64,000 nt of DNA, taken from positions 1-64,000 of the forward strand of contig NZ_JANQJQ010000010.1 of the NCBI RefSeq assembly GCF_028281565.1, given 5' to 3'. Within the stretch, counting starts at the first letter, position 1; every line of letters begins with the position of its first letter. A program made the translations under genes and the position numbers. Shown here piece by piece: positions 39,564-63,990 of the stretch. This DNA comes from Seonamhaeicola sp. GTDB lineage: Bacteria; Bacteroidota; Bacteroidia; Flavobacteriales; Flavobacteriaceae. The notes under the pieces were generated by a model. The model was not told the DNA's origin. It saw nothing but the letters and a program-made list of their open reading frames with translations, and did not search any database.

Positions 39564-39575
39564 CTGTTTTTTTGG

Positions 39576-41003
39576 TTAAAGTTCTTTTTTTCTTTTGTCT
39601 AACTCAGCTCTAATGTCATTGGCCCGTGCTTCTGTAACATCATAATTGCGCATAATATACATGGCAAGGAGTGTCCCTATCATAGGGAAAAAACAAAAGA
39701 AAGCGTGCAGACCATCTACGGCAGATTGCTGATCTGTAGTAACCAGGTCCGGGTCAAACCCAACAACGGCAATAATAACGCCACTTAAACCACCTGCAAT
39801 GGCAAAACCAACCTTGACCATCCACCAATAAATGGCACCAAATATCCCTTCTCTGCGTAAACCGGAGTTTAATTCGTCTATATCAATGACATCGGCGGTC
39901 ATTGACATCATTATAGTAAACAGGCTACCTATGCCGAAGGAGAAAAACGGTAATGCTATAATGTACATCCATGGCTTACCGGGAACAAAAAGAAACCATA
40001 GCATGATGTATCCAACAACTGAGATTCCTTGAGACAACAAAAATGCCTTTTTCTTGCCCATTACCCTGGACATCCAGGTTACGGCTGGAATAACAATAAA
40101 TGTGGTGCCCAATGCTCCCAAACAGCCAAATAAGGCAACCCAAATTCCGGTAGCGGCCACATCACCGTTGAATAATTTATAAACAATGACAAAATAGGTA
40201 AGGGCTGCCACCGTATTGAAAGCATTAAATATTAAGAACGTGGCCGCACACAATTTTCTAAATTCCTTAATCTTGAATGCTTCCTTAAAGCTTTCAAGGA
40301 TTTTCTCTAAGCTACCTCCAATATTGGATAGCGTAAGTGGCTCATAATCTTCATCAGCTGTAGATTTACTTTTTATAAATAATGCCGGAACCATAGCGCA
40401 TATGGTGCATGGAATTGCTACCCAATATGCGAGTTCCCGAACAGCGACATCCGAAGAGGGGAATAAATCCTTATCATCCATAATAACCCAAAACCAAGGT
40501 GCAATAACCCAGGCCCATTGCCCAATCCATTGGGCCACTGCCATAATATTGGTACGCTCATGAAAATCGTCACTCATTTCATAGCCCATGGCTACATAAG
40601 GGACACTAAAAAAAGTAAGTCCGAGATAAAACACAATAGACCACAGGAAGAAATACCAAAAATTGTAATTAAGTGTATTTTCCTTAAATAGCTGCCACAT
40701 GAATATATAGGCAATGCCCATCATGATGGCGCCAATAAAAACATATTGTCTGCGCCTTCCCCATTTAGATTTAGTGTTATCCGATATAAATCCCATTATC
40801 GGATCGGTTATGGCATCGAAAATTCTTGGGAAAAAATAAACAAGAGACCACATCCAGCCATTAAACCCCAGGGATTTCACAAGAACCACCATGAAAATAC
40901 CAAGAATAGCAGGAAACATTTGGTTGGCTAACATGCCTATGCCAAAGGCTACCTTTTGTCCGGTTGATACTTTATTTCTTGTTATCGTTTTGGTTATCGA
41001 CAT
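39576..41003 (-). CDS. GPH-family sugar:cation symporter (copy B)
   Basis: 475 residues from the ATG at 41003 (the frame extends to a TTG at 41024). About 12 transmembrane helices of MFS_2/GPH type, the MelB family. Key features are the helix 2-3 loop region FDAITDPIMGFISDNTKSKWGRRR and SMTADVIDIDEL in the second half, both typical of the family. It should co-import an oligosaccharide with Na+ or H+ across the inner membrane. Paired with a GH17 gene on each side; the substrate is most likely a laminari-oligosaccharide, by context. Confidence 0.92.
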   Translation of the reverse strand: MSITKTITRNKVSTGQKVAFGIGMLANQMFPAILGIFMVVLVKSLGFNGWMWSLVYFFPRIFDAITDPIMGFISDNTKSKWGRRRQYVFIGAIMMGIAYIFMWQLFKENTLNYNFWYFFLWSIVFYLGLTFFSVPYVAMGYEMSDDFHERTNIMAVAQWIGQWAWVIAPWFWVIMDDKDLFPSSDVAVRELAYWVAIPCTICAMVPALFIKSKSTADEDYEPLTLSNIGGSLEKILESFKEAFKIKEFRKLCAATFLIFNAFNTVAALTYFVIVYKLFNGDVAATGIWVALFGCLGALGTTFIVIPAVTWMSRVMGKKKAFLLSQGISVVGYIMLWFLFVPGKPWMYIIALPFFSFGIGSLFTIMMSMTADVIDIDELNSGLRREGIFGAIYWWMVKVGFAIAGGLSGVIIAVVGFDPDLVTTDQQSAVDGLHAFFCFFPMIGTLLAMYIMRNYDVTEARANDIRAELDKRKKEL

Positions 41004-41042
41004 AGTTTTGAGAGATACTTCCAAGATTGATTTTTATTACTA

Positions 41043-42699: not shown

Positions 42700-44130
42700 C
42701 TATAACACACCTCTTCTTTCTTCTAATTGCGCTTTAATCTCTTTGGCTCTTTCTTCAGACAAACTGTATTTCCACATGATCCAAATAGCCAAAGCTGCTG
42801 TTACTACAGGAATGATGATATCGGCGATCCTTAATTTTGTTAAAGTATCAACAGTCTGTGTGGCTGCGTTACCGTCAAATCCTATTAACTTTAATACCAG
42901 GCCTCCTAAAACCAACGCCAATCCTTGCCCGAGTTTTACAACCCACCAGTATAATGCGCCGAAAGTCCCCTCTTTCCTTGGCATACCATTACGAAGTTCA
43001 TCTAAATCACAAACATCAGCCGTCATACTCATCATCAGAGTGAATAAACTTCCTAAACCAAACGACATTAGAGGAATTGGAATAAAGGAAAGCCAAATAT
43101 TATCAGGAGTGAAAGCCCACCACTTCATAAGGTATCCAACAATAGAAAGTGCCGTGGAAATAATGAAAGCTTTCTTTTTGCCCCATTTGGTAGACATTGC
43201 CGATACAATCGGGATCACTAAAAATGCTGAAACCAATGCACCCACAGAGCTAAACCAGGCCGGCCATGTTGCTGTGGCTTCATAGCTTCCGTTAAAAATG
43301 TAAAAAACGAAAATAAAGAAACTAAAGGATGCCACAATTTGGTAACCGTTGAACACCAAAAACGTGGCGCCGCATAATTTCATAAAAGGCCTGTTCTTTA
43401 CAGCTTCTTTTATACTACTGAATAGATCTTTTAGATTGCTAAAGATAGAGGTTAACGTTAGTTTTTTCCTGTTTCCCATATGAGAGGCATCTATACCTCT
43501 ACAAAAAATGGCGGGTAAAAGGCCCAATACCAAACAAGCTGCACCAACATAAATGGCCATGGTTCTTACACCTTCAGCCTGATTGCTAAAAATATCAGGG
43601 TCCGCAATAATGACCCAAAACCAGGGTACAATAACCCAGGCCAACAGACCTACCGTTTGCGAAAAGGCCATAAGACGGGTCCGTTCATTATAGTCGGAAG
43701 TCATTTCATATCCCAGGCCTACCAACGGCGTGGCAAACATGGTGTTCCCAATAAGGAAAACCATGGACATGATCAGGAAGTACCAGAAGTTATAATCTGA
43801 TGAATTATTTTCATTAAGTTGCCAAAGCAGTACAAATGTTATGGCACTTAAAATACCACCAACCAAAATATACGGCCTCCTTCGGCCCCATTTTGAACTG
43901 GTGTTGTCTGAGATGAATCCCATAATAGGATCGGTGATCGCATCAAAAAACCGGGGCAATCCACCTAAAAGGCCTGCTAAAAAGGGATCCATCCCAAAAG
44001 CAGTCAGTAAGAAGAACATAAAGAACCCCAGGGCTCCCGGATATAGGTTCAAAACCAAATGACCGGCACCAAAAGCGGCTTTTTGACCAATAGGGACTCT
44101 GTCCTTTGCAGCTGTTTTTACGTTTGACAT
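42700..44130 (-). CDS. GPH-family sugar:cation symporter (copy A)
   Basis: 476 residues, about 12 transmembrane helices, MFS_2/GPH type. It shares with copy B the segments FDAITDPIMGFISDNTSSKWG and SFGLGSLFTLMMSMTADV, and a conserved Asp-rich stretch (CDLDELRNG). Predicted inner-membrane importer for glucan oligosaccharides released in the periplasm. It lies directly downstream of the GH30 gene and, through the unknown 211-residue protein, upstream of cytoplasmic GH17 copy A. Confidence 0.92.
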   Translation of the reverse strand: MSNVKTAAKDRVPIGQKAAFGAGHLVLNLYPGALGFFMFFLLTAFGMDPFLAGLLGGLPRFFDAITDPIMGFISDNTSSKWGRRRPYILVGGILSAITFVLLWQLNENNSSDYNFWYFLIMSMVFLIGNTMFATPLVGLGYEMTSDYNERTRLMAFSQTVGLLAWVIVPWFWVIIADPDIFSNQAEGVRTMAIYVGAACLVLGLLPAIFCRGIDASHMGNRKKLTLTSIFSNLKDLFSSIKEAVKNRPFMKLCGATFLVFNGYQIVASFSFFIFVFYIFNGSYEATATWPAWFSSVGALVSAFLVIPIVSAMSTKWGKKKAFIISTALSIVGYLMKWWAFTPDNIWLSFIPIPLMSFGLGSLFTLMMSMTADVCDLDELRNGMPRKEGTFGALYWWVVKLGQGLALVLGGLVLKLIGFDGNAATQTVDTLTKLRIADIIIPVVTAALAIWIMWKYSLSEERAKEIKAQLEERRGVL

Positions 44131-44169: not shown

Positions 44170-45657
44170 TTATGGAATTACAATAGTTTGAATAGCCTGC
44201 GCATCTATTGAAAATTCTACATGCTTGTCGTTTAGCGTTAGGTTTATGGTTTTTGGGGTATTAAACTCATTAAAAAGGACCACCGCCATGGAGCCATCAG
44301 GATTCTGAGCAGCAGCAGCCAGTAATTTTTCGTCGGTGTTTTCTAATCCAATGACTTTAGCTTCCGGCCTGATGTATTTACTAAAGTGTGCCATGGTGTA
44401 ATACAGTGGGGTAAAGTACACCTCGTCTTTATCCGGATCTACAATCACAGGGGCAATACACCAGTTTTTAAACCAGTTGGGGCCTCCTTTGGTATCAAGT
44501 ACCATATTCCAGTCAACCCATCCGTCCACCCAGTTATTCAGGCAGCCAATAATATCTCTGGCGTATCTGTTCACAGGGGCATATTTGGGATGAAAGTGTT
44601 TGTCTTCTTCCGGAGCCCAATCCCAACCCCAATCTGTGGCTTCTTTTTTCCAATACCAGGCATCGTCTTGCCACACAGGAACTTCGGCGTCCACGCAAGC
44701 TTCCGACTGAATTAAAAGTTTGTCTGGTGCTTTATTATGGGCATATTGCAGTTCTTCCGGGAACACATGAAATGTGCTTGCATACCAGTGGATAGCCGTG
44801 CCATCAAAATATTTGGATGTTTCTTCATTTTTATATTGAGAATCAACCCATTCTTTTAAATGTTCCCTATTTTGATCGTAACCTAAAATTTTAAGGTCCC
44901 CTTTTCCGTCTGCTTCCAGTTTGGGTCCTAAATGATTCTGAACAAAGTTGGTCATTTCATCGGGTGTGTAGTGCATACTTTCCCAATTGTTACCATTACC
45001 CAAAGGTTCGTTTTCCACGGTAAAACCCCAGATATCAATCCCTTCTGCTTTGTAAGCATCTGCAAACTTAGAGAAAAACAAGGCCCATGTATCATAGTAT
45101 TCCGGGAGCAGTTTGCCGCCCACCCAATGGTTATTGTCTTTCATCCAGGGCGCCGCGGTCCATGGCGAACCAAAGATTTTAAAACCGTCCGTTGAAGCTG
45201 CCATAGCATCTTTTATGAATGGGATTAAATCCTCTTTATCTTCTTCAATAGTAAAATGCTCCAGGTTTTTATCGCCTTCCACGGGTGTGTAAGAGTAATT
45301 GCTTACAGAAAAATCGCAGGAGTTCATATGGGTTCTGGTTAAAGAATAGTGGGCGCCTTCTTTTGAAAAGTAAGCTTTTATTATGGTGTCTCTATTCTTT
45401 TTACTTAGTTTATTAAGTAAGTACGCTGAAGATTCTGTAAAAGCCCCTCCAAAGCCTGTTATGGTTTGAAAGGTTTGTTCCGGTGTAAGCTTAATTGTTA
45501 CTTTTTCATCAGAGTTATTAAACTCGGTAATTTTTGAAAGTTTATTACCGGCTGCTGATGTTTCAAAAACTTCAACATTAAGTTTTTTATCTTCTTTATT
45601 ACAGCTTATCATCATCAAGATTACTACCACTAATGCTATATGTTTTAATGTTTTCAT
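44170..45657 (-). CDS. GH30 lipoprotein, candidate beta-1,6-glucanase
   Basis: 495 residues. Lipobox MISC (Cys19). GH30 TIM barrel plus side beta domain: QTITGFGGAFTESSAYLL near the start, IFGSPWTAAPWMKDN, acid/base Glu217 in FTVENEPLG and nucleophile Glu319 in LLIQSEACVD. GH30 subfamilies include beta-1,6-glucanases and glucosidases. In a beta-1,3-glucan PUL it would remove beta-1,6 branches of laminarin. A periplasm-facing or surface lipoprotein. It starts 23 bases after the GH17 lipoprotein gene. Confidence 0.92.
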   Translation of the reverse strand: MKTLKHIALVVVILMMISCNKEDKKLNVEVFETSAAGNKLSKITEFNNSDEKVTIKLTPEQTFQTITGFGGAFTESSAYLLNKLSKKNRDTIIKAYFSKEGAHYSLTRTHMNSCDFSVSNYSYTPVEGDKNLEHFTIEEDKEDLIPFIKDAMAASTDGFKIFGSPWTAAPWMKDNNHWVGGKLLPEYYDTWALFFSKFADAYKAEGIDIWGFTVENEPLGNGNNWESMHYTPDEMTNFVQNHLGPKLEADGKGDLKILGYDQNREHLKEWVDSQYKNEETSKYFDGTAIHWYASTFHVFPEELQYAHNKAPDKLLIQSEACVDAEVPVWQDDAWYWKKEATDWGWDWAPEEDKHFHPKYAPVNRYARDIIGCLNNWVDGWVDWNMVLDTKGGPNWFKNWCIAPVIVDPDKDEVYFTPLYYTMAHFSKYIRPEAKVIGLENTDEKLLAAAAQNPDGSMAVVLFNEFNTPKTINLTLNDKHVEFSIDAQAIQTIVIP

Positions 45658-45680: not shown

Positions 45681-46964
45681 CTATTGCTTATTGGCATGCC
45701 ATGCTTCGGCAGTGGGCGGTACCTCAACATCTTTCATTAATGCTTCTTTATCTCCATTGTAAGTTTTGGTAATTGGATTGCCGTTTCGGGTTAATCCCTT
45801 AAAGGTTCCCTTGTCAACTTCATCCCAAAGGGCAAATTTTGCTTTTCCGTCAACTTTAAATAGCCCAAAGTGTTTTTCAGAATTTCCCGAATTAGTTCCG
45901 CCTTTCCAGGGTTCATCAAATCCTTCAAAGTAAAAACATGACATACCGGCTTCATTGGTCCAGTCTCTCATGTGCTTGTAGTAAAGGGCTTCCTTGTATT
46001 CATCACAGGCTTTAGAACCTTTGGTTCCGTAATGGCCTGAAGAAAAACTGGCCCATCCGGTCTCTCCTATATGAATAGGTTTATTCACACCAAGGCTTTC
46101 CATATACTTCCTGACGTTTTCATATTGCATCATGGCATATTCCTTGGCCCTTAGCATGGAGATTTCGATTTTCTCCAAATCTGTTTTGCCTTCCAGGCCT
46201 TCGGATTTCAACCAAAACTCCGGTTGGTAATGGGTGTCATGCATAGGGTAGGTGTGAACGGAAAGAAAATCTACGGCCTTGATGAGTTTATTAAGATCTT
46301 CAACATGGTATTCTTCATCACCGCCACCCCAGGACGCAAAATTATCTGAGCTTGTAACCCATAAATCTTTGGAAAGTTTGCCCTCTTTCTTTAAGTCTTG
46401 AAGGTAATTCACCCATTTTAGGATGACCCAGGGTTCTACATAGTATGAGGCTGCCCATTTCACCATAGCTTCGTTACCAACAGCGATAACTTTTACGATA
46501 TCCGGATATTGATTAGCAAGGGCAACGGCTTTTTCCATTTGTGGTTTGTTGTCCTCGCTTTCTTCGTTGTGAATGGGTTCTTTATCAGTCCAGGCATTTT
46601 TACAGTCAATCCAGGCGCCAAGCATCACATACATTTCAAAATCCGGATCCTTTTGTTTTATTTCGCTAATAGCCTTCAAAAGATTTTCAGCCTGAGGTTT
46701 GTGTACTTTATAGGTTCTAACCAATCTTATTCCTAAGGCATGCAAAAGATGCATGTCTTCCTTTAACTCATCCAGAGTGGGTTCAATGCTGTGATCAGCA
46801 TGTCTATAGCCGCCGTAGGACATAGCCTGGTATTTGGAGTTACCCAAAATATCTTTCGCAGTTAATTGATTTTTTTCTGCAACTTGATTCGTAGTGTTGT
46901 TTTTTGTTTTATTACAAGACCACATAACACATATTAAGATGATTAACAGATACTTTTTTTTCAT
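45681..46964 (-). CDS. GH17-like lipoprotein (copy 2)
   Basis: 427 residues. Lipobox MWSC (Cys17). TIM-barrel glycosidase with acid/base Glu165 in IAVGNEAMVKWA and nucleophile Glu301 in IHIGETGWASF, the GH17 arrangement. Larger than the cytoplasmic GH17 pair, with extra segments around TSSDNFASWGGGDEEYH and a late FDEPWKGGTNSGN motif. Probably a beta-1,3-glucanase or exo-acting relative on the periplasmic or outer-membrane side. It begins only two bases after the stop of copy 1, and the two are clear tandem paralogues. Confidence 0.88.
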   Translation of the reverse strand: MKKKYLLIILICVMWSCNKTKNNTTNQVAEKNQLTAKDILGNSKYQAMSYGGYRHADHSIEPTLDELKEDMHLLHALGIRLVRTYKVHKPQAENLLKAISEIKQKDPDFEMYVMLGAWIDCKNAWTDKEPIHNEESEDNKPQMEKAVALANQYPDIVKVIAVGNEAMVKWAASYYVEPWVILKWVNYLQDLKKEGKLSKDLWVTSSDNFASWGGGDEEYHVEDLNKLIKAVDFLSVHTYPMHDTHYQPEFWLKSEGLEGKTDLEKIEISMLRAKEYAMMQYENVRKYMESLGVNKPIHIGETGWASFSSGHYGTKGSKACDEYKEALYYKHMRDWTNEAGMSCFYFEGFDEPWKGGTNSGNSEKHFGLFKVDGKAKFALWDEVDKGTFKGLTRNGNPITKTYNGDKEALMKDVEVPPTAEAWHANKQ

Positions 46965-46966
46965 AA

Positions 46967-48256
46967 CTAATAGTTTAATACAATGTCTTCTTTCAGATGA
47001 GGTATATCAACCGTATTCATTAACTCATCTTTATTGCCATTATAGGTTTTAGTGATTGGATGTCCACCTCTGTTCAAACCTTTGAACAAACCGGCATCAA
47101 CCAAATCCCAAAGCGCATATTTGGCCTCACCCTCAACGGTAAACAAACCAAAATGATTTTCAGAACCCTTTTTATTATGGGCATCTTTCCACGGTTCATC
47201 AAAAGCTTCAAAATAAAAGCATGAGATCTTATTTTCTTTGGTCCAGGCTCTCATATGATTGTAATAAAGCGCTTCTTTATACTCATCTGTGGCTTTGGAA
47301 CCATTGGTGCCATAATGTCCATTTGATAGGGTGGCCCAACCTGTTTCACCAATATGTACTGGTTTGTTGACTCCCAAATCTTTCAAATAATTGCATACAC
47401 TGTCATATTGCTTCACAGCAAACTCCTTGGATCGTTTCATGGCAGCTTCTATTTGTTCCTCTTTAGATAAATGACTTTCTTCTCCCAGTACGCCCCAAAA
47501 CTCCGGGTTGTAATGGGTATTGTGCATAGGGTAGGTGTGCATAGATATATAATCTACCGCTTCAATAATCTTTTCCAAATCAGGTGTACGGTAGGAAGGG
47601 TCTCCGCCTCCCCAGGAAGCAAAATCATCTGAACTTGTAATCCATAAGTCTTTTGGTAATTTCCCTGCTTTTTTAAGGTTTTGCAGATGATTGACCCATT
47701 TTAAAATAACTTCCGGTTGTACATAATAACTTGTTGCCCAACGTACCATAGCTTCATTACCAACTGCAATTATTTTTACAATATCCGGGTATTGTTTTGC
47801 CAGGGCCACGGCTCTGTCTATTTCAGCAGCATTTAGAGGGCTTTCAACATTGTGATCAGGTTCAAGCTCGGTCCATGCGTTTAAGCAATCAATCCAGGCA
47901 CCTAACATCACATACATTTCAAATTGTTCATTTTCCTTTTTTAACTCAGAAATAGCCTTAAGTACATTTGAAGCATGCTTTAACTGCACATTGTATGTGC
48001 GCAGTATCTTGATGCCCATGGCATTAAGAATTTTTAAGTCTTCTTTTAGTTCTAAAACTGTTGGTTGAATATCGCGGGTATTCTTTCTGTAACCCCCATA
48101 AGAAATTGCCAAATATTCCGGATTTCCCAAGATATCTTTAGCCGTTTTATTCCTATCTAAATGCATGGATTCTTCTTTTGTCTTTGGTTTGTTAGTGCAG
48201 GACAATAGGACTGTCACTACAGCTATAATGGTTGCTATTTTTTTTAAAGTTTTCAT
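46967..48256 (-). CDS. GH17-like lipoprotein (copy 1)
   Basis: 429 residues. Lipobox LLSC (Cys20). Acid/base Glu168 (AVGNEAMVRWA) and nucleophile Glu304 (HIGETGWATL). It aligns with copy 2 over its whole length (AKDILGNPEYLAISYGGYR versus AKDILGNSKYQAMSYGGYR). The split of activity between the two copies cannot be read from sequence. It starts three bases after the phosphorylase gene, so expression is tightly coupled. Confidence 0.88.
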   Translation of the reverse strand: MKTLKKIATIIAVVTVLLSCTNKPKTKEESMHLDRNKTAKDILGNPEYLAISYGGYRKNTRDIQPTVLELKEDLKILNAMGIKILRTYNVQLKHASNVLKAISELKKENEQFEMYVMLGAWIDCLNAWTELEPDHNVESPLNAAEIDRAVALAKQYPDIVKIIAVGNEAMVRWATSYYVQPEVILKWVNHLQNLKKAGKLPKDLWITSSDDFASWGGGDPSYRTPDLEKIIEAVDYISMHTYPMHNTHYNPEFWGVLGEESHLSKEEQIEAAMKRSKEFAVKQYDSVCNYLKDLGVNKPVHIGETGWATLSNGHYGTNGSKATDEYKEALYYNHMRAWTKENKISCFYFEAFDEPWKDAHNKKGSENHFGLFTVEGEAKYALWDLVDAGLFKGLNRGGHPITKTYNGNKDELMNTVDIPHLKEDIVLNY

Positions 48257-51791: not shown

Positions 51792-52661
51792 TTATTCTTC
51801 ATCTGCTGAATACACTCTCACGTAGTCAACATACATTGTTTGAGGGAATACGGTTTCTGGTGTTGGATTTCCATCAAAGTTGCCACCAACAGCCAGGTTT
51901 ATAATCATAAAAAATGGACCATTATCATAGACCCAGTTGGATCTATTTACATCTTCCTCTTCAAGGGTGTCCGGTGTTATTTGAAAATATAACACGTCAT
52001 CGATGTAGTAATTAATGTACTGTGGGCCCCATTCAATGCCATAGATATGGAATTCAGTGTCTACTCGAGACATTTCAAACTCGAACTCCTTTTTAATGGC
52101 ATCTCCACCTGAATGTCCTGGTCCATGAATAGCGCCACTGGCCACTGTTGGATTGGAACCACCATTTTCCATGACATCAATTTCGCCGCAGAAAGGCCAC
52201 CCAATCTCATCAATATTAGCACCTAATAACCAAAAGGCAGGCCACATGCCTTTACCGAATGGTAATTTCATTCTGGCCTCAAACCTTCCATACTGCTGCT
52301 CAAATAACCCTTTTGTTAAGAGTCTGGCTGAAGTGTAGCCGGAACCTTCAAAAGATTCCTGAATTGCAGTAATTTTAAGCATGCCATCTTCTACAACTAC
52401 ATTTTCAGGTCTGTCCGTATAATATTGCAACTCGTTATTTCCCCAGCCATTATCCCCGGTTCCTATGTCAAAGCCCCATATGGCACTGTTTGGTGCTCCA
52501 TCAACATCGAACTCATCACTCATGGTTAAAGTTTCAAAGTTTGTAACGACTTGTGTCTCATCTGTGTAGCAACTTAAAACGGTGCTTCCAATTATGACTA
52601 ATGTCAACAAAGCACAAAGTGATTTAAGTTGCGTTGATTTTATTCTATTCTTAAATTTCAT
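51792..52661 (-). CDS. GH16 laminarinase lipoprotein
   Basis: 289 residues from the ATG at 52661; the longer frame reaches back into the upstream gene. Signal segment with VLSC (Cys31) as lipobox. The GH16 beta-jelly-roll has the catalytic motif GEIDVMENGG: Glu160 nucleophile, Glu165 acid/base, the EIDxxE form with Met insertion of endo-beta-1,3-glucanases. Also WGNNELQYYTDR and WPAFWLLGANI, typical of laminarinases. A surface or outer-membrane endo-acting enzyme that shortens the glucan for SusCD. It has no extra binding domain. Confidence 0.94.
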   Translation of the reverse strand: MKFKNRIKSTQLKSLCALLTLVIIGSTVLSCYTDETQVVTNFETLTMSDEFDVDGAPNSAIWGFDIGTGDNGWGNNELQYYTDRPENVVVEDGMLKITAIQESFEGSGYTSARLLTKGLFEQQYGRFEARMKLPFGKGMWPAFWLLGANIDEIGWPFCGEIDVMENGGSNPTVASGAIHGPGHSGGDAIKKEFEFEMSRVDTEFHIYGIEWGPQYINYYIDDVLYFQITPDTLEEEDVNRSNWVYDNGPFFMIINLAVGGNFDGNPTPETVFPQTMYVDYVRVYSADEE

Positions 52662-52674
52662 TTTTTCTTTGTTT

Positions 52675-54108
52675 TTAATTTTCAGCATAGTAGTATATGT
52701 TATCAAGAGATACATTAGCTATAGTGCCATCTGATACAAATAGCATCATCCCAATGGCATCCCTAACACTTAATCCATCAAAACTAGATAGCGGTATATC
52801 GAATTCTACCCACTCATTACTTAATAAATCGGATGCACTAAAAGTAAATGCTCCTGAAACTTCGCTAGGCTGTGTAAAATTGTTATGTAACGACATTGTA
52901 ATGAAATCATCAGGATCCAGACCTTCATTTACCCTAATATCTATGTGAAGATGCGTCATCTCAGTTGCATCAACAGGTTGGATACCACTGCCTTCTCGTC
53001 CATAATACTCAATGGCTACAAAATTCAACATGGTATAATCTATAATGTTGTTTCCGTTCTCAACAATTGCTCCTCCCAGGGTAGTTTGAAATGGTTCATA
53101 GAACCCGTTATAATTATCAACGGGGATATTGGCGAATACATCGCTAAAAATGGAAATCACATCAATGTTTACTGCCTCAACTGTTAATGAGCCGGCAGCT
53201 TCAATACCTCCAAGGCTTGCTGTAATTGTAGCTTTATTGTCTCTTTCTCCTGTATCCGGATCGATGTTGCCAATGCCGTCAATTGTGATTATACCGGCAT
53301 CGCTTACCGAGGCTACGAAAGGGTTAGAAGTTTCAAAGTCAAAATAAAAAGGTGTAGTGGTTACCGTTATATCCCCGCCATTAGGACCATTTAAGGTTTG
53401 TGTAAGGCCAATAATTGGAATCTGACTGTCTACGTTGGCTTGTGCCGTTTGATCTTGTCCACCTAGAATTGCCGGCCTTGGCTGACCGATGGTTCCTAAT
53501 TTTTCAAATCTAAGTTCATCTATCCAAAATGTGAAACCTTCACCATTGGTGCTTTGGGTTCCTGCTGAAAATTTGAACATCCCTTTTTCCTGAACCAACT
53601 TTGAAGGGTCTGGTATAGGTATTATTATTTTTTTCCAGTCTGTAGACAATTCTACATTATTAATGTCAGCAACATATTTATTTTCCTCAAAATCGGTTCC
53701 AAAACCGAATGTTTCAACTATCGCAGTAGTAGAACCCTTTAACCAAAAGGTAAGAGCATCATACCCTGTTAAATTCCTTCCTGCTCCTCTGTCGGTAAAT
53801 ATTCCACCTATATAAGCACCGTTAGGGTCAGTTGGTGTTGGCACATCAACTCTTATTGAAGTGGTTCCCGCGTATGCTTCATTTTCGTCAGTACTAAAGC
53901 CTTCTGTATTGGCTCCTGTGGCTGGATCAAAAGACTCAAAAAATTCATCTGTAAGACCAACAGGAGCATCAGTGAATATATCTGGTGTGTTTGGAAAAGT
54001 GGCAAAATCGATGTCATCGGAAAAGCCTCTTTCGCAACTTGCCATTACGACACATATTAATCCTAAAAGAGGAAAAACAATGTGATATTTTAAATTTAAT
54101 TTCTTCAT
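52675..54108 (-). CDS. Surface glycan-binding lipoprotein candidate
   Basis: 477 residues. Lipobox MASC (Cys25). Three parts and no glycosidase residues: a beta-sandwich CBM-like domain (about 46-203, ending TFWIDELRFEKLG), an Ig-like BIG2-type domain (about 211-313, FVASVSDAGIITIDG) and a C-terminal module (about 314-477, starting DVISIFSDVFANIPV and ending SLDNIYYYAEN). The last is homologous to both repeated modules of the 528-residue T9SS protein. By position (after the barrel fusion, before GH16) it is likely a surface glycan-binding protein. Confidence 0.8.
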   Translation of the reverse strand: MKKLNLKYHIVFPLLGLICVVMASCERGFSDDIDFATFPNTPDIFTDAPVGLTDEFFESFDPATGANTEGFSTDENEAYAGTTSIRVDVPTPTDPNGAYIGGIFTDRGAGRNLTGYDALTFWLKGSTTAIVETFGFGTDFEENKYVADINNVELSTDWKKIIIPIPDPSKLVQEKGMFKFSAGTQSTNGEGFTFWIDELRFEKLGTIGQPRPAILGGQDQTAQANVDSQIPIIGLTQTLNGPNGGDITVTTTPFYFDFETSNPFVASVSDAGIITIDGIGNIDPDTGERDNKATITASLGGIEAAGSLTVEAVNIDVISIFSDVFANIPVDNYNGFYEPFQTTLGGAIVENGNNIIDYTMLNFVAIEYYGREGSGIQPVDATEMTHLHIDIRVNEGLDPDDFITMSLHNNFTQPSEVSGAFTFSASDLLSNEWVEFDIPLSSFDGLSVRDAIGMMLFVSDGTIANVSLDNIYYYAEN

Positions 54109-54121
54109 AATTAAAGCTTTG

Positions 54122-57100
54122 TTATTTTCCTATGTTAATATGTATGTATGTTCTAATTTCCCATTCTGAGCCATCGGGAAATCCAACCGGGCTTAGAAGT
54201 GGTGGTGAATTAGGGTTAGTCGCATTCGGATCGGCAGCGAGCGGCGAATACCTTGGTGAATTCGCATCTAAAGAACGCCACATCCCTCTAATTCCAATTT
54301 GTGTACTAGGTAAAATGAACCAATCTGGTTTTCCTATAGTAGTAGACACATCTAACATCATTTGTAGTGGAAAGGTCAAGTTAAAATCACGATGGTAATC
54401 AAAAGGTCCCCAATCATTTACTTTAAAGTGCGACATTATTTTAACTCTATCCATTAATATTCTTAAATCTGCACCAAAGCGTGTGATGGTTCTTTTTGAA
54501 TCACCATTGGCTTGACCGTTACCATAGTAAAGGTTGCTAACAAGTCCGAAGTCGCGACTCATCTTTGACACCACGCGGGCATGAGCTTCCCATAGGTCTA
54601 CCGCCGGAGCAGATTCCCCAAAGGCGAAGAATGTACGATCGGCAAAGAACCCGATGTGTCCATCCATAGTTGTTGGCAAGTGTTTATACACAAAACCTGC
54701 GCTAAATGCTAATTTTGCATCTTCTGATCTATCGCTGTCCCAGGCATACATCCAGGTACCCGGCGTAGGGTCGAAGGTGAATAATATCTCACCAGCGGCT
54801 GTTTCCCTGTTACCATTTCTAACTGCAAATGGGTCGTCAATTACATTTCTTAAACGACCGGGACCAGGAACTCCATTAGGCATTGGATCTATCAACGGCT
54901 TTTGATACATGAAGTTAGGTGCGATTTGTAAATTTCCAGCCGAAAATGTTAAACCTGTCAGGAAGTTTGACATATTACCGCTTCCCGAATCTTTAAGTTT
55001 CCACCCCGTGAAGGTTCTGGTTTGGTCAACACCACCGTTGGCTACAAGACCCATATAAGATCCCTGGGCGTACCAGTTAAAGGCACCTTTTTGATAGGTG
55101 ATTTTAGCTTTTGCACCCCAGTTGTCATCACTATTGATTTTATCTACTAAAACAACATCGGTATCCGGTTCAAATACCTGGAATGAACTGCCGTTTAGAG
55201 GTCTACCGCCCCAAATACCACCAAGGGTAATTCCAAAATTGCCAAACTCTCTTTCAAGAGCAATGGTTGCTCTTTCAGTCGGCCAGGCAGGAATGATACC
55301 CGAACGTACTTGATTTTGGTTTAAAACACGTCTTCCGGTTTCGTCAAATTGAAGATTTGTGTTTAAATCTCGGTGATATATACCGGTGACGTCCCATTTG
55401 GCTATATGTCTGGAATATTTTAATAGCACGGTTGGGTTTGCTCCCCACCATAATTGTGGTCCAAACGCTGCTTTAAGTCCTTTTAAAGAACCTTTGGCAT
55501 CTACTTCAACACCTAAAATTTCACCGTTGTAGATATCTAAGTTAGGTCCGTAATTTGCTTCAGGATAAAGATTAAAGAAATCTCCTTCATAGGCCCAATG
55601 GTAGTGCCCTGTTCTGTAAAATCCTCTTAAATCAAAATCTTTGGCATTCCATTCAAATTCTGCTTGATACACACGAACCCGATTATTATCGGCAAGCGTT
55701 ACCTGATCACCATCGGTGTTCGTAACAGTCACCGGTCGACCCACATTCTCATAAAAGATTTCATTTATCGGGTTACCGGCTACATTACCTAAAATATTGA
55801 AATCTACATTAGCTTTCATTTTTGAGGTTGGTTTTCCTTCGATTCCTACGAAATAGGATTGCATATGATCAAACCCCAGTTGATTGGGAAATGTTTGAGC
55901 ATCATCAGGATTTGCTGTATCAGGCGTTCTAATTAAAGTACCTCCCGTATTGAACGTAGTAAACTTGGCAGTCAATCTGCTAATACTTAGTTTTTCCGAA
56001 TCCCTTCCTCCAAGAGCGGCTTTATCACCACGCGCTCTTAAAACGGCATCCGTAATATTGATATTCTCAAAGTAGTTTTGAATGAAGTCCAGATCTACAC
56101 CTTCGCCATAAGGATTTACGGCATGCGCCTCTTTTAGTGTATAATATGAGGCACGAGGGTACAGGTCATATAAACCACGTTGATCCGTTGGCCCTTTGGC
56201 ACAAATACCAAACCATTCCTCATTCATGTTGTTAGAACCGTCTTTGGTATCGTGGTAGTAACCACCGTTACTCCAGGATGCTCCGGTTTCATGTGAGTCG
56301 GCATTCTCTCTATCATCAAAGCCCAACTTCCACCAGCCATCACTGAATTGGAATGTGAAACCTCCTATGGAGTTCCCCACTTTTCCTAATCCGGCAGCAT
56401 TTTCATAAATCTCTTTCCAGTTCAACAGATTATAATGGGCCTGCCAGTATTGATCTTCTTTATCGGCTAACGCATTATAGGCATCTGCACCAAATTCAGT
56501 AAACATGACCGGTATATCCAATTGGTCTTTTACTACCTGGAAGAAATCGCCAAAAGACTCTCCCCTGTATGTATTGGCACCATATACATCAACGTCCTTA
56601 CATTCTTCCGCAATGATATCAATGAATAATACGTCACCATTACAAATAGCAACCGGGTGGTTTGGATCCATGGCTTTCATTTTCAGAGCGACTTCATTCA
56701 TCAATTTATACATGGGTCTTCCCCTTTTTTCTCCAACGGCTCTTTTTTGTTCTTCGCCTTCCGGAAAATCTTCGGTTTCAGCGCCTTGCCAAAAGAGTCC
56801 GTAGTTGTTCTCGTTACCCATCATATACATCAAAATCCCGGGAACATCTTTATAGTCTTCAACTAATTTGATCATTTCTGATACTAGCTGTTCCTGCGTT
56901 TTTTCATCTGAGTATATTGTAACCGGTGTCCAAACACCATCAATAGTTAGCCCATAGCGTCCAAATGAGTGATTTAACAGGGTATAAATACCGTATTTTT
57001 CATAGATATAGGTAACCCACTTAGCCGGTACACCAACGTATTGTCTAATACAGTTGACGTTCATATTCTTTAAAAGGCTCATTTCGGTATCCAATCCCGC

Positions 57101-57316
57101 CCTAATAACGTCATCGGATTGTTTGTAGAAGTTGGCATTGGTTACATCGGTACCAATTGGAACATAATCCCAATTCATACCATTGATCATAAAGTCCTTG
57201 CCATCTACGACTAATTTGGTTCCCTGGTCATTCTTTACTATCTCAACTTTGTTGGCCTGAGCAAAAATTGCAGAAGTAAATAAGAGAAACACTAATTGTA
57301 ATAAATTGTTTTTCAT
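54122..57316 (-). CDS. Clan GH-A glycosidase fused to outer-membrane beta-barrel
   Basis: 1064 residues. Signal peptide (to about residue 20). A TIM-barrel glycosidase domain (about 24-400), related to GH2/GH5-type enzymes, starts DFMINGMNWDYVPIG. Acid/base candidate Glu169 in MMGNENNYG; nucleophile candidate Glu274 in VMFTEFGADAYN. From about residue 430 to the end the chain consists of alternating amphipathic, aromatic-bounded strands with turns (FEWNAKDFDLRGFYRTGHYHW, LLKYSRHIAKWDVTGIYHRDL; TYIHINIGK at the end), as in a beta-barrel of 16 or more strands. There is no TonB plug. Fourth gene of the PUL; the substrate should be the beta-glucan. I know no characterised enzyme with this layout. 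Confidence 0.8.
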   Translation of the reverse strand: MKNNLLQLVFLLFTSAIFAQANKVEIVKNDQGTKLVVDGKDFMINGMNWDYVPIGTDVTNANFYKQSDDVIRAGLDTEMSLLKNMNVNCIRQYVGVPAKWVTYIYEKYGIYTLLNHSFGRYGLTIDGVWTPVTIYSDEKTQEQLVSEMIKLVEDYKDVPGILMYMMGNENNYGLFWQGAETEDFPEGEEQKRAVGEKRGRPMYKLMNEVALKMKAMDPNHPVAICNGDVLFIDIIAEECKDVDVYGANTYRGESFGDFFQVVKDQLDIPVMFTEFGADAYNALADKEDQYWQAHYNLLNWKEIYENAAGLGKVGNSIGGFTFQFSDGWWKLGFDDRENADSHETGASWSNGGYYHDTKDGSNNMNEEWFGICAKGPTDQRGLYDLYPRASYYTLKEAHAVNPYGEGVDLDFIQNYFENINITDAVLRARGDKAALGGRDSEKLSISRLTAKFTTFNTGGTLIRTPDTANPDDAQTFPNQLGFDHMQSYFVGIEGKPTSKMKANVDFNILGNVAGNPINEIFYENVGRPVTVTNTDGDQVTLADNNRVRVYQAEFEWNAKDFDLRGFYRTGHYHWAYEGDFFNLYPEANYGPNLDIYNGEILGVEVDAKGSLKGLKAAFGPQLWWGANPTVLLKYSRHIAKWDVTGIYHRDLNTNLQFDETGRRVLNQNQVRSGIIPAWPTERATIALEREFGNFGITLGGIWGGRPLNGSSFQVFEPDTDVVLVDKINSDDNWGAKAKITYQKGAFNWYAQGSYMGLVANGGVDQTRTFTGWKLKDSGSGNMSNFLTGLTFSAGNLQIAPNFMYQKPLIDPMPNGVPGPGRLRNVIDDPFAVRNGNRETAAGEILFTFDPTPGTWMYAWDSDRSEDAKLAFSAGFVYKHLPTTMDGHIGFFADRTFFAFGESAPAVDLWEAHARVVSKMSRDFGLVSNLYYGNGQANGDSKRTITRFGADLRILMDRVKIMSHFKVNDWGPFDYHRDFNLTFPLQMMLDVSTTIGKPDWFILPSTQIGIRGMWRSLDANSPRYSPLAADPNATNPNSPPLLSPVGFPDGSEWEIRTYIHINIGK

Positions 57317-59324: not shown

Positions 59325-60881
59325 TTAATATCCAGGGTTTTGTCCCCATCTTTCTTCAGCATTGGCTAATTCCAATTCTATTAGTGGTATAGGGAATAAT
59401 TCATGTTTGTTTTCAACAAAGGTTATAGCCACAAAGTCATCAGGTTTTGTGGTATTGTAGTTGTCAAATGCGGCCTTAGCTCTTCCGGTTCTTACCAGAT
59501 CAAAGAACCTGTGGCCTTCGCCTGCCAGCTCTTTACGGCGTTCGGCAAATATGGCATCTGCTAAAGCCCCTTCACCTGAAGTATAATCATGACTGTTGTC
59601 GCCATAGGCTCTGGCTCTTACCTGGTTTAAGTAATTTTCAGCATTACTGCCACCGCTCTGAGCTTCTGCTTCTGCAGCCATTAACAGGACATCGGCATAA
59701 CGAATAGATCTGTAATTGTGCGGGTGTGTCAATTCTGCGGTTGCAGCACCTTTGTCTGCTTTACGAGGCATGTATTTATGATTATAGAAACCGGTATCTT
59801 CTCTTGGTGGGGAATACGAAGAGTTATCGCCTGCTTCTTTTAAATCTGTTAAATCAAAAATGGTAACAGCTCTTCTCATGTCATCATCATCAAAGGCATC
59901 ATAAAGTTGTTGTGTAGGTAAACAAAAGCCCCATCCGGATGCATAAACAGGATCGTCATAAGGCGATCTTGGTCCGTTAAATTGTACAAAATACGAGCCT
60001 TCACTACAGGCCAGGCAGCCCCATCCGGCACCTTCTAAATTGGTATATTGAATTTCAAATACGGATTCCGGGCCATTTTCACCATCTATAGTAAACAAGT
60101 TGGTGTAATCATCACCGGTTACCAAACTGTATTGGTTGCTTGAAATAACCTGGTTTAAGACTGCAGCAGCTTCGGCGTGTTTGCCATCAAATAGATATAC
60201 TTTTCCCAGCAATGCCTGGGCAGCGCCTTTGGTGGCTTCATAAGGCAAGTCCTGAGTTACCGGTAAGGCGGGAATGGCTGCTTTCAGATCTTCCTGAATC
60301 AGACCATAAATAGCCGAAACACTTGCCGTTCTTTCCATAGTGAACTGGTCTCCCGGGATCACTCTTTCGTCCTTGATTCTATTAACACCATTCCGATCTT
60401 CAATCTTTAGCGGTACATTACCAAAGAATTTGGCAAGCTCAAAAGTGTAATAGGCTCTTAAGAAATAAGCTTCCGCAATGATTTCTTCTTTACCGGCAAA
60501 GTCTAATTTATCTTTGTTCTCCAACAGATAGTTGGTACGATTGATACCGGCGTACATCAGCGTCCATATATCCCTTAATTGGTTATTGTCTGACGGTGTT
60601 TGTGTCAGGTAATTTACATTTTGAAGGGTCGGCTGGTCAATGGTAAATGAATCCCCGCCGGCAATGATATCATCTGAAGCCACCACACTGGTGAGTACAT
60701 TCCAAAACGTGGCTTGCAACAGATCATAAGCTCCTATTAAAGCGTCTTCGTATTCTTCAGGCGAATTGAAAAAATCCTCATCGGTCTTTCCTGCCGGTTC
60801 TACTTCAACAAAATCATCACATGAAGGATAAATAAAAAGAAGCAGTATCAATAAATACTTTAATGTTTCTATTCTTTTCAT
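59325..60881 (-). CDS. SusD-family glycan-binding lipoprotein
   Basis: 518 residues. Signal peptide with PSC (Cys21) as acylation site. SusD helical core: YAGINRTNYLLENKDKL, EEIIAEAYFLRAYYTFELAK, YADVLLMAAEAEAQSG, and a C-terminal RRKELAGEGHRFFDLVRTG. It forms the lid of the SusC encoded seven bases upstream and would bind beta-1,3-glucan. A CLAC pair at about residues 292-295 (GWGCLACSEGSYF) is unusual and might bind metal or form a disulfide. Confidence 0.95.
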   Translation of the reverse strand: MKRIETLKYLLILLLFIYPSCDDFVEVEPAGKTDEDFFNSPEEYEDALIGAYDLLQATFWNVLTSVVASDDIIAGGDSFTIDQPTLQNVNYLTQTPSDNNQLRDIWTLMYAGINRTNYLLENKDKLDFAGKEEIIAEAYFLRAYYTFELAKFFGNVPLKIEDRNGVNRIKDERVIPGDQFTMERTASVSAIYGLIQEDLKAAIPALPVTQDLPYEATKGAAQALLGKVYLFDGKHAEAAAVLNQVISSNQYSLVTGDDYTNLFTIDGENGPESVFEIQYTNLEGAGWGCLACSEGSYFVQFNGPRSPYDDPVYASGWGFCLPTQQLYDAFDDDDMRRAVTIFDLTDLKEAGDNSSYSPPREDTGFYNHKYMPRKADKGAATAELTHPHNYRSIRYADVLLMAAEAEAQSGGSNAENYLNQVRARAYGDNSHDYTSGEGALADAIFAERRKELAGEGHRFFDLVRTGRAKAAFDNYNTTKPDDFVAITFVENKHELFPIPLIELELANAEERWGQNPGY

Positions 60882-60888
60882 AGCTTGT

Positions 60889-63800
60889 TTAAAATTTTAA
60901 ATTAACTCCTAATAAATAAGATTTGGCTACCGGATAAAATCCTTTATCTATACCGTTTCCAATGGGTTCGTTAGATGCGGCAGAAGGGTCAAAACCTTTG
61001 TAATCCGTAATGGTAAATAAGTTGTTACCTGATACGTATATGCGCAGTCTGTCTATACCTAAACTTTCCAGAACATCCTGATTAACGGTATACCCTAATT
61101 GCGCATTCTGCAGACGTACAAAAGAGGCGTCTTCAACAAAAAAGTCTGATAATAAGTTGGTGTTAATAGAACCTCCTGAAGTCACTCTGGGGACTGAATT
61201 ACTGGTTCCGGTTCCCTGCCATCTGTGCAGGATATAATCTCCAATATTTCCTGTAGGGTCCTTACGCTCATAATCCCTGATCATATCATTCCCTATGGAA
61301 GCAAATGCATTGGCACTAAAGTCAATGTTCTTGTACGTAAACCCGATATTAAAGCCCATAGTTAATTCAGCAATAGGATCGCCTATTACGGTTCTGTCAT
61401 CCGGGGTGATCTCGCCATCGCCATTTAAGTCAACAAAGATCAGGTCACCTACCTGTGCACCGCCATTATCGCTATGATAAACACCGCTAGGAGCCGTAGC
61501 ATTCAGGGCATCTAATTCTGCTTGTGTCTGGTATACGCCATTGGTTTTGTAACCGTAAAAATGACCTAGCGGTAATCCCGGTACCATACGTGAAATACCG
61601 GTTTGACTGATACCTACTCCAAATTCGCCACCTACGGGTGGAATTTCACCATTCACTGAAACCACTTCATTATCTAATGTTGTCAGATTGAAACCTATAT
61701 TGAATTCAAAATCATCAGAAAAATTGTCGTTGTAAGAAATGCTGAACTCAAGCCCCTTGTTCTCAACGGTTCCCGCATTAACCAATGGGAAGCTCGATGG
61801 ATTTAAACTTGGGTTGATGACCCCGGACGCCTGTGGTGCAAATAATAAGTCTTTTGTTCTTTTTCTATAAGCATCTGCGGAGAATCTTACCTTGCTATTA
61901 AACAACCTGGCATCTAAACCTACATTGGTTGATTCCTGCTCCTCCCATTTTAGATCGGGGTTACCGGGTACACCAGATGCAATTCCGAAAATCAAATCAT
62001 CTAAAGTAGTGGCATTTCCCGGTGCTATAGTAGCTTCTCCGTTAAGTCTGGTGATAAAACCAAAAGAACCTATTCGGTCATTTCCAATGATACCGTAACT
62101 TGTTCTTAATTTTAACGAGTTTATTATACCGTCCTGGTTCCAGAAGTCTTCGTCAGAAATATTCCAACCTATAGAGCCTGAAGGGAAGTATCCAAACTTA
62201 TTGTTTGGTCCAAAATTACTGGATCCGTCCCTACGTAACACAGCGGATAACAAATATTTTCCCTTGTAGTTATATTGTACCCTGGTAAAGAATGATTGTA
62301 AGCGACTATCAAAGAAGTCGGCACCGGAGGCCAAAGCAGCCTCATCAAAGCGCGGTACTATACGTCCGTCAACTCTATCACCAACCCAGCCGTCAACAAA
62401 GGCATCGGATACCGAATTACTGCCATTTGCTAAATTGAACCCGGTATTTCCATAATAGTGACCTCTTGTTCTGAAGGCTGAGGCTCCCAATAAAACTGTA
62501 AGATTGTGATCTTCTGCAAACGTGTTATTATAGGTGATATAACTGTCCCAGGTGTAATCAGTGAATATAGCATTAAAATCCTGTACTTCATTTTCTGTTC
62601 TTGAATTTGATTTACTACCACCGTTACCGAAATCAACTACAGGCCTGAACACGTCATCTAATACGTTGGCATAGTTAATTTGAAACTTGGAACTTACCGT
62701 GAAGTTTTCTAGAAATGTATAGTCTAAACCTATAGTAGCACTATATCTGTCTACCCGTGTAATGTTATGATTGTTAGTAATTTGTGCTACAGGGTTGATG
62801 ATCTCAATACTTGAAACACTTTCTGCTAAAGAAAAATCGCCATTTTCATCATATACGGGTAGATCCGGATTGATATTTACCGCATTGTAAAGCGGGGTTC
62901 CTATACCACCTTCCGGCAAGTTATTCTTTTTAGAATTGGTATATAGTCCGGTAGTGGTTAACTTTAAGTTTTCCAGAATATCATAATTGTATGATAATCT
63001 GGCCGTGGTTCTTCGGAAATTGGATTTGCCGCCACCAACAATACCGTCCTGGTCTAAATTTGAGATACCGAAACTGTAGGCAGATTTTTCTCCACCGCCA
63101 CTGGCACTAAGATTAATATCGCTAATAGAGGCCGTTTGAAATACCTCATCCTGCCAGTCGGTACCTTCCTGAGGATACACAAAATACCTGGTCTCATCAA
63201 AAGCGTCATTTACATAAATAGCAAAATCCAGAGGACCTAACAGGTCAATCTCTTTACTTGTAGACTGAAACCCGGTAAAGGCATCTAAAGTGAATTTAAG
63301 TTCAGATCCTTTGCGTCCGGTCTTTGTCGTGATGATGATTACCCCATTGGCACCCCGAACTCCATAGATACCGGCAGTGGCATCTTTAAGTACATTAATA
63401 CTCTTAATGTCGTTAGGGTTTAAAACAGAAAGGTCTGAAATGACGTTTCCGTCCACCAAAATTAAAGGTTGGTTGTCACCGTTTGTAGTGATACCCCTGA
63501 TCCTGATATTAGAACCGGCACCCGGTGAACCGGAATTAGAAGCAATATTTACACCGGCTATCTGGCCCTGTAAAGCCTGTTCTACCCTTGTTGGGTTTAA
63601 CTTTTCAATAGCTTCTGTGTCTAATACAGCAACTGCTCCCGTTACTTCTTTTTTCTTCTGCGTACCATAACCAACTACGACCACTTCGCTCAATTGCGCA
63701 ACGTCAGGGTCTAATTGAACGGTAATAGCGTCAGAATTTTGTACTGTAATCTCCTTAGTTATATAGCCTATATAACTAATTGATAAAACTGCACCAACAT

Positions 63801-63990
63801 CAATGCCTGATAATGTAAAATTACCATCAAAGTCAGTAACAGTTCCGGTTGTAGTGTTTTTTACTATGACATTAGCACCCGGTATTGGCATCCCAGTATC
63901 ATCTACTACGGTACCATTTACATCTGTTGTTTGAGCATAAACAGAAAGGGAAAGGCATAATGCCAGAATAAACATTAGTTTGTCTTTCAT
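60889..63990 (-). CDS. SusC-like TonB-dependent glucan transporter
   Basis: 1033 residues. Cleavable signal peptide (to about VYAQ), carboxypeptidase-regulatory-like domain (about 22-105, VNGTVVDDTGMPIPGANVIV), plug (EVVVVGYGTQKKKEVTGAVA; RIRGITTNGDNQPLILVDG) and barrel ending AKSYLLGVNLKF. It lacks the N-terminal STN domain present in the other SusC of this window, so it should not signal through FecR. First visible gene of the PUL operon; its start lies 10 bases from the right edge, so the promoter and any upstream regulator are outside the window. Confidence 0.95.
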   Translation of the reverse strand: MKDKLMFILALCLSLSVYAQTTDVNGTVVDDTGMPIPGANVIVKNTTTGTVTDFDGNFTLSGIDVGAVLSISYIGYITKEITVQNSDAITVQLDPDVAQLSEVVVVGYGTQKKKEVTGAVAVLDTEAIEKLNPTRVEQALQGQIAGVNIASNSGSPGAGSNIRIRGITTNGDNQPLILVDGNVISDLSVLNPNDIKSINVLKDATAGIYGVRGANGVIIITTKTGRKGSELKFTLDAFTGFQSTSKEIDLLGPLDFAIYVNDAFDETRYFVYPQEGTDWQDEVFQTASISDINLSASGGGEKSAYSFGISNLDQDGIVGGGKSNFRRTTARLSYNYDILENLKLTTTGLYTNSKKNNLPEGGIGTPLYNAVNINPDLPVYDENGDFSLAESVSSIEIINPVAQITNNHNITRVDRYSATIGLDYTFLENFTVSSKFQINYANVLDDVFRPVVDFGNGGSKSNSRTENEVQDFNAIFTDYTWDSYITYNNTFAEDHNLTVLLGASAFRTRGHYYGNTGFNLANGSNSVSDAFVDGWVGDRVDGRIVPRFDEAALASGADFFDSRLQSFFTRVQYNYKGKYLLSAVLRRDGSSNFGPNNKFGYFPSGSIGWNISDEDFWNQDGIINSLKLRTSYGIIGNDRIGSFGFITRLNGEATIAPGNATTLDDLIFGIASGVPGNPDLKWEEQESTNVGLDARLFNSKVRFSADAYRKRTKDLLFAPQASGVINPSLNPSSFPLVNAGTVENKGLEFSISYNDNFSDDFEFNIGFNLTTLDNEVVSVNGEIPPVGGEFGVGISQTGISRMVPGLPLGHFYGYKTNGVYQTQAELDALNATAPSGVYHSDNGGAQVGDLIFVDLNGDGEITPDDRTVIGDPIAELTMGFNIGFTYKNIDFSANAFASIGNDMIRDYERKDPTGNIGDYILHRWQGTGTSNSVPRVTSGGSINTNLLSDFFVEDASFVRLQNAQLGYTVNQDVLESLGIDRLRIYVSGNNLFTITDYKGFDPSAASNEPIGNGIDKGFYPVAKSYLLGVNLKF

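Follow-up and report, generated by a model that had tools for sequence, protein, structure and literature searches.

A glycosidase fused to a predicted outer-membrane beta-barrel, widespread in Bacteroidota, may serve algal beta-glucan uptake without the usual SusC/SusD pump

Introduction

The atypical polysaccharide utilization locus (PUL) CHU_1276-1280 of Cytophaga hutchinsonii is described as serving cellulose use without a need for SusCD; the presence of its protein resembling surface glycan-binding protein B is said to matter more than the binding by that protein, and the predicted structure of CHU_1276 is said to match TonB-dependent transporters (PMC12016534). In Formosa, the fusion of a major facilitator superfamily (MFS) transporter to a GH17 glycoside hydrolase, FbGH17b, is proposed by its authors to cleave and transport simultaneously (PMC6246565). 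Here we analyse a 64,000-nucleotide stretch of Seonamhaeicola sp. (Flavobacteriaceae; contig NZ_JANQJQ010000010.1, positions 1 to 64,000; hereafter the window), in which one gene joins a signal peptide and a clan GH-A glycosidase to a predicted 24-stranded outer-membrane beta-barrel, next to the gene of a surface-type lipoprotein resembling a carbohydrate-binding module (CBM). The fusion is widespread in Bacteroidota and may provide for algal beta-glucan uptake without the usual SusC/SusD pump.

Common to this system and CHU_1276-1280 are outer-membrane protein(s), with a beta-barrel predicted for one, a glycan-binding protein of the outer membrane that is CBM-like and bimodular, an endoglucanase, and glucan use independent of SusCD, as proposed for the present system, and the C. 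hutchinsonii locus can be regarded, by analogy, as a functional counterpart of the whole system. It differs, compared by published description only, in having barrel and enzyme in separate genes and cellulose as substrate. With FbGH17b the present protein has in common the fusion of a transporter to a carbohydrate-active enzyme in the laminarin pathway, with a proposed coupling between cutting and uptake, but the Formosa protein is described as an alpha-helical MFS transporter of the inner membrane, whereas ours would be a beta-barrel of the outer one. Like SusCD, it combines a large outer-membrane barrel with a partner surface lipoprotein in a PUL; unlike SusCD, it has no plug or TonB domain, its partner is CBM30-like rather than SusD and the enzyme is fused to the barrel. 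A laminarin variant of GH5_46 was also considered, and is described as a CBM6-containing enzyme, not as a barrel fusion (PMC6794258). Each part of the system is of a known kind, and what is new is the combination, the lipoprotein partner and the presence in genomes without a detected SusD. The sequence-only reading of the window knew of no characterised glucanase of such build, and we likewise found no characterised fusion of a glycosidase to an outer-membrane barrel in searches of an open-access library.

Architecture of the fused protein

The signal peptide and the TIM-barrel glycosidase with candidate catalytic glutamates at 169 and 274, which had been read from the sequence, were both recovered. 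The TIM domain begins directly after the signal peptide, and a lipobox is absent from 104 of 106 fused relatives (by regular expression; the two matches look spurious). PF02836, at 21.4 bits for a cut-off of 21, is the sole Pfam match of the fused protein and falls on the TIM barrel, and structure comparison of residues ~15-420 gives GH157, GH2 and GH158 as fold matches, with the exopolysaccharide glycosidase PslG also among them. The fold is close to that of the GH158 and GH157 endo-beta-1,3-glucanases of clan GH-A, namely BuGH158 (6pal), GH158(Pro) (9oro) and LaGH157 (9g4n). Members of this clan have a (beta/alpha)8 barrel in which the acid/base glutamate stands after strand 4, preceded by an asparagine, and the nucleophile glutamate ends strand 7. 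In our model strand 161-166, the fourth of the TIM barrel, is followed by E169, and strand 270-275, the seventh, contains E274; neither residue varies across 81 aligned rows, and N168-E169 and E274 are kept in 23/23 homologues without the barrel. The domain accordingly has the features of clan GH-A, and catalysis is predicted. Membership in GH2 was rejected because the sugar-binding and jelly-roll domains of that family are missing N-terminal to the TIM barrel.

For the ~630-residue C-terminal region, first read as an outer-membrane barrel without a TonB plug, AlphaFold predicts 24 long strands both in isolation and together with the enzyme (our own count, two short loop hairpins excluded), and the TIM domain is separated from strand 1 by only ~40 residues. 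Folded alone, the region reached a pLDDT of 74 and a pTM of 0.72. Hydropathy alternation along the strands was 2.63, whereas 2,000 shuffles within strands averaged 1.42 and never exceeded 2.19, and covariation was higher between neighbouring than between non-neighbouring strands (p 7e-6). All 50 VIA structural matches listed are, by title, membrane barrels or complexes round one, the PapC/FimD ushers coming first, and soluble beta-sandwiches after residue 430, the outcome under which the sequence-only reading would have been given up, were not seen. Foldseek searches with the C-terminal model had many TonB receptors among the matches listed, at a TM score of about 0.3-0.4 and a root-mean-square deviation of 12-17 A. 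At the sequence level, a profile search with this part of the window protein returned zero Pfam families at E <= 1, 21 scanned barrels gave a few weak, unrelated matches (best E 0.017) and no relative of the barrel was found in the PDB at E <= 10. On the model, therefore, the region is an outer-membrane beta-barrel of 24 amphipathic strands.

The barrel is nearly as conserved (0.76) as the enzyme (0.79), and its inward face is more conserved than its outward one. Aromatic outer loops are conserved at residues 570-598, 621-627 and 970-980. The linker as a whole is less conserved (0.63) than the barrel or the enzyme, but it contains the invariant residues L426, A428, R429, D431, A433 and A434, A424 being almost invariant. 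The proposal of an enzyme fixed at a plug-less pore is supported, as regards the fused architecture, by both the modelling and the conservation.

Known barrel types were tried in turn. The translocator of type Va autotransporters was rejected given the 24 strands instead of the 12 of a classical autotransporter barrel, in agreement with the larger size noted from the sequence, and neither the fused protein nor any of the 21 barrels has an autotransporter Pfam match. TonB-dependent receptors, SusC included, were set aside as the fused protein is without the PF07715 plug that the window's own SusC has. Descent from such a receptor by loss of the plug was considered as well; to set against it are the low similarity of the Foldseek matches and the ushers ranking first with VIA. 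A DUF5916-type barrel was not retained either, since PF19313 matched neither the fused protein nor any of the 21 barrels at E <= 1; the alignment with one DUF5916 protein from the same genome by hhalign, a weak test with a single protein, gave a probability of 0.2%. The likeness to the PapC/FimD ushers is limited to strand number and size, with no usher Pfam match at E <= 1 and glucan genes as the scanned neighbours.

Distribution and linkage to a CBM-like gene

A scan of GTDB genomes yielded at least 588 related stretches, of which the best 80 (L001-L080), all from Flavobacteriaceae, were kept; these are 66-86% identical to the window protein and align from residue 1-29 to 1059-1064, i.e. the fusion is present at full length. 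In a sample of the phylum (296 genomes, the window's own counted) the whole profile was found in 36, some of them through the enzyme part only, and by part the barrel was found in 30 and the enzyme in 37. In a sample of the order the fusion profile was found in 7/196 genomes, one match being partial. The enzyme without the barrel occurs repeatedly, and the barrel without the enzyme was seen in none of the 296 genomes except as pieces at breaks or contig ends. Among viral contigs, 10 pattern matches were obtained, none of them a relative.

Loci were then compared for their neighbours. We fetched 20 barrel-less and 20 fused loci (one search, with 52 places, supplied all of the fused and part of the barrel-less ones) and 15 from the phylum sample, and dropped L139 (interrupted), L140-L143 (remote) and L206 (truncated) before counting, so that the counts cover 26 fused loci and 23 without the barrel. 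The CBM-like gene adjoins the fusion in 77 of the best 80 Flavobacteriaceae loci (up to 300 bp away in 65, 536 bp away in 1 and overlapping in 11, the first ATG of the CBM-like reading frame falling inside the fusion), and the three misses have merely 2, 75 and 228 bp of downstream sequence. It is found in all 26 further fused loci (downstream by up to 300 bp in 23, overlapping in 2 and upstream in 1), and in 0/23 barrel-less ones, 19 of which have at least 2.5 kb downstream. A tree of the enzyme domain with 63 rows shows at least 7 changes between the fused and barrel-less states, 5 on well-supported branches, and a second tree of 56 rows, from which two long rows were left out, also shows 7. 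In all five independent pairs, the presence of the CBM-like gene matches that of the barrel. Behind the enzyme, remnants covering the barrel's first 40-65 residues persist in 4 of the 26 barrel-less loci examined for them (L138, L190, L191 and L209), the enzyme frame being open in the first three and interrupted by a stop in L209, and none of the four has a CBM-like gene in the fetched stretch. Together with L139, where the barrel is cut short, these remnants indicate that some barrels were lost recently. The lipoprotein partner is present or absent together with the barrel, and the barrel was lost repeatedly.

These counts bear on a simpler explanation, in which the barrel would be a passive porin, the enzyme would only trim short laminari-oligosaccharides, the CBM-like protein would be a mere glycan-binding neighbour and the fusion would only fix the stoichiometry. 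A large plug-less barrel would suit such a role, and the persistence of the enzyme in 23 barrel-less loci implies that it works without the pore; however, the co-occurrence of barrel and CBM-like gene suggests a complex, and the lack of a barrel-only gene in the 296 genomes suggests that the pore needs the enzyme, so that we find this explanation improbable.

Orientation of the enzyme

By the short-turn rule applied to loop lengths, the N-terminus of the barrel, and with it the enzyme, would be on the periplasmic side. In Bacteroidetes, lipoproteins of the cell surface are described as having an acidic signal for export close to the N-terminus, which in Capnocytophaga canimorsus reads K-(D/E)2 or Q-A-(D/E)2 (PMC5080379). 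As a proxy for it we counted at least two acidic residues at +2..+6 after the cysteine. SusD (25/27), the CBM-like protein (94/116) and GH16 (77/90) were mostly positive, GH17 (6/63) and the barrel-less enzyme (3/18, the remote L140-L142 included) mostly negative; outside Flavobacteriaceae the values were 3/3 for SusD, 11/18 for GH16, 3/23 for GH17 and 3/18 for the enzyme. A lipobox is present in 14/23 barrel-less enzymes by regular expression, plus that of L136, which the strict pattern missed, and the other 8 have apparent plain signal peptides (no predictor was used). These counts suggest a surface location for the CBM-like partner and GH16 and a periplasmic one for the enzyme, and in combination with the topology of the barrel they favour an enzyme at the inner mouth of the pore. 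Of the two sides that the sequence-only reading had offered, the periplasmic one is thus preferred and display on the outside is less favoured.

Display would amount to an autotransporter-like arrangement: the barrel would only anchor a surface enzyme that pre-digests glucan for SusCD, with the helix pair at residues 409-436 passing through the pore. The order of the parts fits (N-terminal passenger, C-terminal barrel, and a helical linker with invariant residues that is long enough for the membrane), the CBM-like and GH16 neighbours are surface-type lipoproteins and the window does contain SusCD. Yet, besides the doubled strand number and the missing autotransporter match, the barrel-less homologues look soluble or are mostly without the surface-export signature, some hosts have no detected SusD, and the conservation of the barrel, higher on the inward face, would be needless for a mere anchor. 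We consider display rather unlikely.

Relation to SusC and SusD and the favoured reading

Three Pfam models of SusD (PF07980, PF14322 and PF12771) were searched in chosen fusion-bearing genomes. PF07980 proteins occur in 22 of 26, and G144, G255, G066 and G051 have neither PF07980 nor PF14322 (two controls were positive for PF14322). In G255, G066 and G051, which are 99-100% complete, no SusD was detected by any of the three models, and all three carry the fusion with the CBM-like gene adjoining (loci L146, L144 and L107). None of the 26 further fused loci, 19 of which have at least 7 kb upstream, has a same-strand SusC; in L220 and L223 a SusC lies on the opposite strand. SusC and SusD lie directly upstream in two of the loci without the barrel, L135 and L200, and SusD in L195.

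The reading towards which we lean, if by a small measure, is that of a porin of the outer membrane, fused to a glucanase and partnered by a surface lipoprotein, through which beta-1,3-glucan would enter independently of TonB and be cut on arrival. The architecture, the invariant glutamate pair, the linkage between barrel and CBM-like gene and the presence without a detected SusD are observed, the 24-strand fold comes from the model, and we infer glucan transport, the periplasmic side of the enzyme, the beta-1,3-glucan substrate, glucan binding by the partner and capture by cutting. In this scheme the GH16 lipoprotein would cut glucan at the surface into pieces, and the CBM30-like lipoprotein would bind beta-1,3-glucan and hand chains to the conserved aromatic outer loops of the barrel. 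The pieces would then enter through a wide, plug-less, TonB-independent pore, and the GH-A domain at its periplasmic mouth would cut the chains on arrival, thereby hindering back-diffusion. GH17 and GH30 enzymes, MFS transporters and the cytoplasmic phosphorylase could complete the pathway; these last steps are proposed because of the annotated families.

Several observations weigh against this reading. It rests on sequence and models, with transport and activity predicted, and the full-length model has a pTM of 0.52, the relative placement of the domains being of low confidence. The pair of strands 1 and 24 ranks 124 of 253 in covariation, which gives no support to barrel closure. The sign test over the five pairs gives p 0.0625, the minimum reachable with five. 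The export signature is a proxy for surface location; it was intermediate for GH30 (8/24) and, outside Flavobacteriaceae, reached just 18/24 for the CBM-like protein. The conserved helix pair could thread the pore as in an autotransporter. SusC is nearby in the window as well as in 26 of the best 80 Flavobacteriaceae loci, so that the barrel is not the sole importer there, and the stretches fetched for 20/23 barrel-less loci show neither the barrel nor a SusD on the same strand, so that the enzyme needs no linked importer. Finally, G144 has one PF12771 (SusD-like_2) protein, and another TonB-dependent transporter may be at work in the SusD-free genomes.

A bolder version of the favoured reading, which we put forward tentatively and think doubtful rather than probable, is that of a new importer class: a TonB-independent 24-strand porin, with a periplasmic glucanase as catalytic ratchet and a CBM lipoprotein in the role of SusD, replacing SusCD for beta-1,3-glucan in SusD-free Bacteroidota. 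If true, a conserved pore equipped with an enzyme and a surface lipoprotein of its own, also found without a detected SusD, would represent a second principle of polysaccharide uptake and explain beta-glucan use by SusD-free relatives. With the MFS-GH17 fusion of the inner membrane, it would indicate that in the laminarin pathway cutting and transport are coupled at the inner as well as the outer membrane. As for the sequence-only reading, its observation is confirmed and its interpretation supported, activity and transport being predicted.

The surrounding beta-glucan locus

The beta-glucan PUL context was also correctly recognised from the sequence: Pfam searches of the window proteins, with the match to 6hq6 for the phosphorylase, place the fusion in a run of co-directional genes with GH16, four GH17, GH30, GH81, a phosphorylase, MFS transporters and SusCD (Table 1). 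The order is SusC, SusD, a lipocalin-repeat lipoprotein, the fusion, the CBM30-like lipoprotein, GH16, the 1150-residue protein, GH17, GH17 and GH30, followed by MFS, a 211-residue protein, GH17, MFS, GH17, a protein with a type IX secretion system (T9SS) tail and GH81-CBM6 with a T9SS tail. No signal peptide was seen in the phosphorylase, which points to the cytoplasm. The CBM-like protein retrieved just two weak, unrelated matches from the PDB.

Table 1. Coordinates of the fused gene, its parts and the neighbouring genes in the window
Feature	Position	Strand	Basis or remark
Fused porin-glycosidase gene, 1064 aa, ATG start	54122..57316	-	Open reading frame; full-length relatives
Signal peptide, signal peptidase I type, no lipobox, residues 1-20	57257..57316	-	Sequence reading (...AIFAQ|A), no predictor
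Clan GH-A TIM-barrel domain, residues ~21-404	56105..57256	-	Pfam, fold matches, model
Catalytic candidate E169 (codon)	56810-56812	-	
Catalytic candidate E274 (codon)	56495-56497	-	
Linker, residues 405-439, helices 409-417 and 421-436	56000..56104	-	Model, alignment
Predicted 24-stranded outer-membrane beta-barrel, residues 440-1064	54125..55999	-	Model, structural matches, hydropathy
SusC	60889..63990	-	Pfam
SusD	59325..60881	-	Pfam
Lipocalin-repeat lipoprotein	57426-59288	-	
CBM30-like surface-type lipoprotein partner, 477 aa	52675..54108	-	PF21582 E 4e-4, below cut-off; 13 bp downstream of fusion
GH16 (SKN1/KRE6-like) glucanase	51792..52715	-	Pfam; surface-type lipoprotein in most relatives
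GH149-type beta-1,3-oligosaccharide phosphorylase, 1150 aa	48260..51712	-	6hq6 (presumably family GH149), 1617 bits; no Pfam match
GH17 lipoprotein	46967..48256	-	Pfam
GH17	45681..46964	-	Pfam
GH30	44170..45657	-	Pfam
MFS_2 sugar transporter	42700..44130	-	Pfam
Membrane-type protein, 211 aa	42023-42658	-	No Pfam match
GH17-MFS-GH17 trio	38679-41957	-	
MFS_2 sugar transporter flanked by two GH17 genes	39576..41024	-	Pfam
GH17 genes flanking second MFS_2	41043-41957 and 38679-39563	-	Pfam
T9SS-tailed proteins at the PUL end	36410-37996 and 32602-36342	-	

The locus also bears on the idea that the bacterium exports or remodels a beta-glucan of its own, with a periplasmic glycosidase and a secretion pore as in the export of alginate, Pel or cellulose. 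Polysaccharide export typically involves large barrels and periplasmic glycosidases, and GH17 enzymes can transglycosylate; the enzyme's fold matches include PslG, and the GH16 also matches the SKN1/KRE6 model, associated with glucan synthesis. The gene content is nevertheless catabolic (SusCD, MFS transporters, phosphorylase, GH30 and GH81 with a T9SS tail), and no glucan synthase was found among the 20 window proteins scanned with Pfam, out of 41 reading frames of at least 150 aa, making this idea very improbable.

The lipoprotein between SusD and the fusion has three near-alike lipocalin-like repeats of ~150 residues, with a weak PF13648 match below cut-off; it is present in 14/114 loci, the window's own counted, and is possibly a third surface glycan-binding protein. 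A membrane-type protein is encoded between the first MFS gene and a GH17 gene, and the genes of the GH17-MFS-GH17 trio are separate, in contrast to the fused MFS-GH17 described in Formosa (PMC6246565). Of the two T9SS-tailed proteins at the PUL end, one is the GH81-CBM6 protein and the other has repeated domains whose matches include CBM-like relatives; as secreted proteins, the two would bind and cut glucan alongside the surface system.

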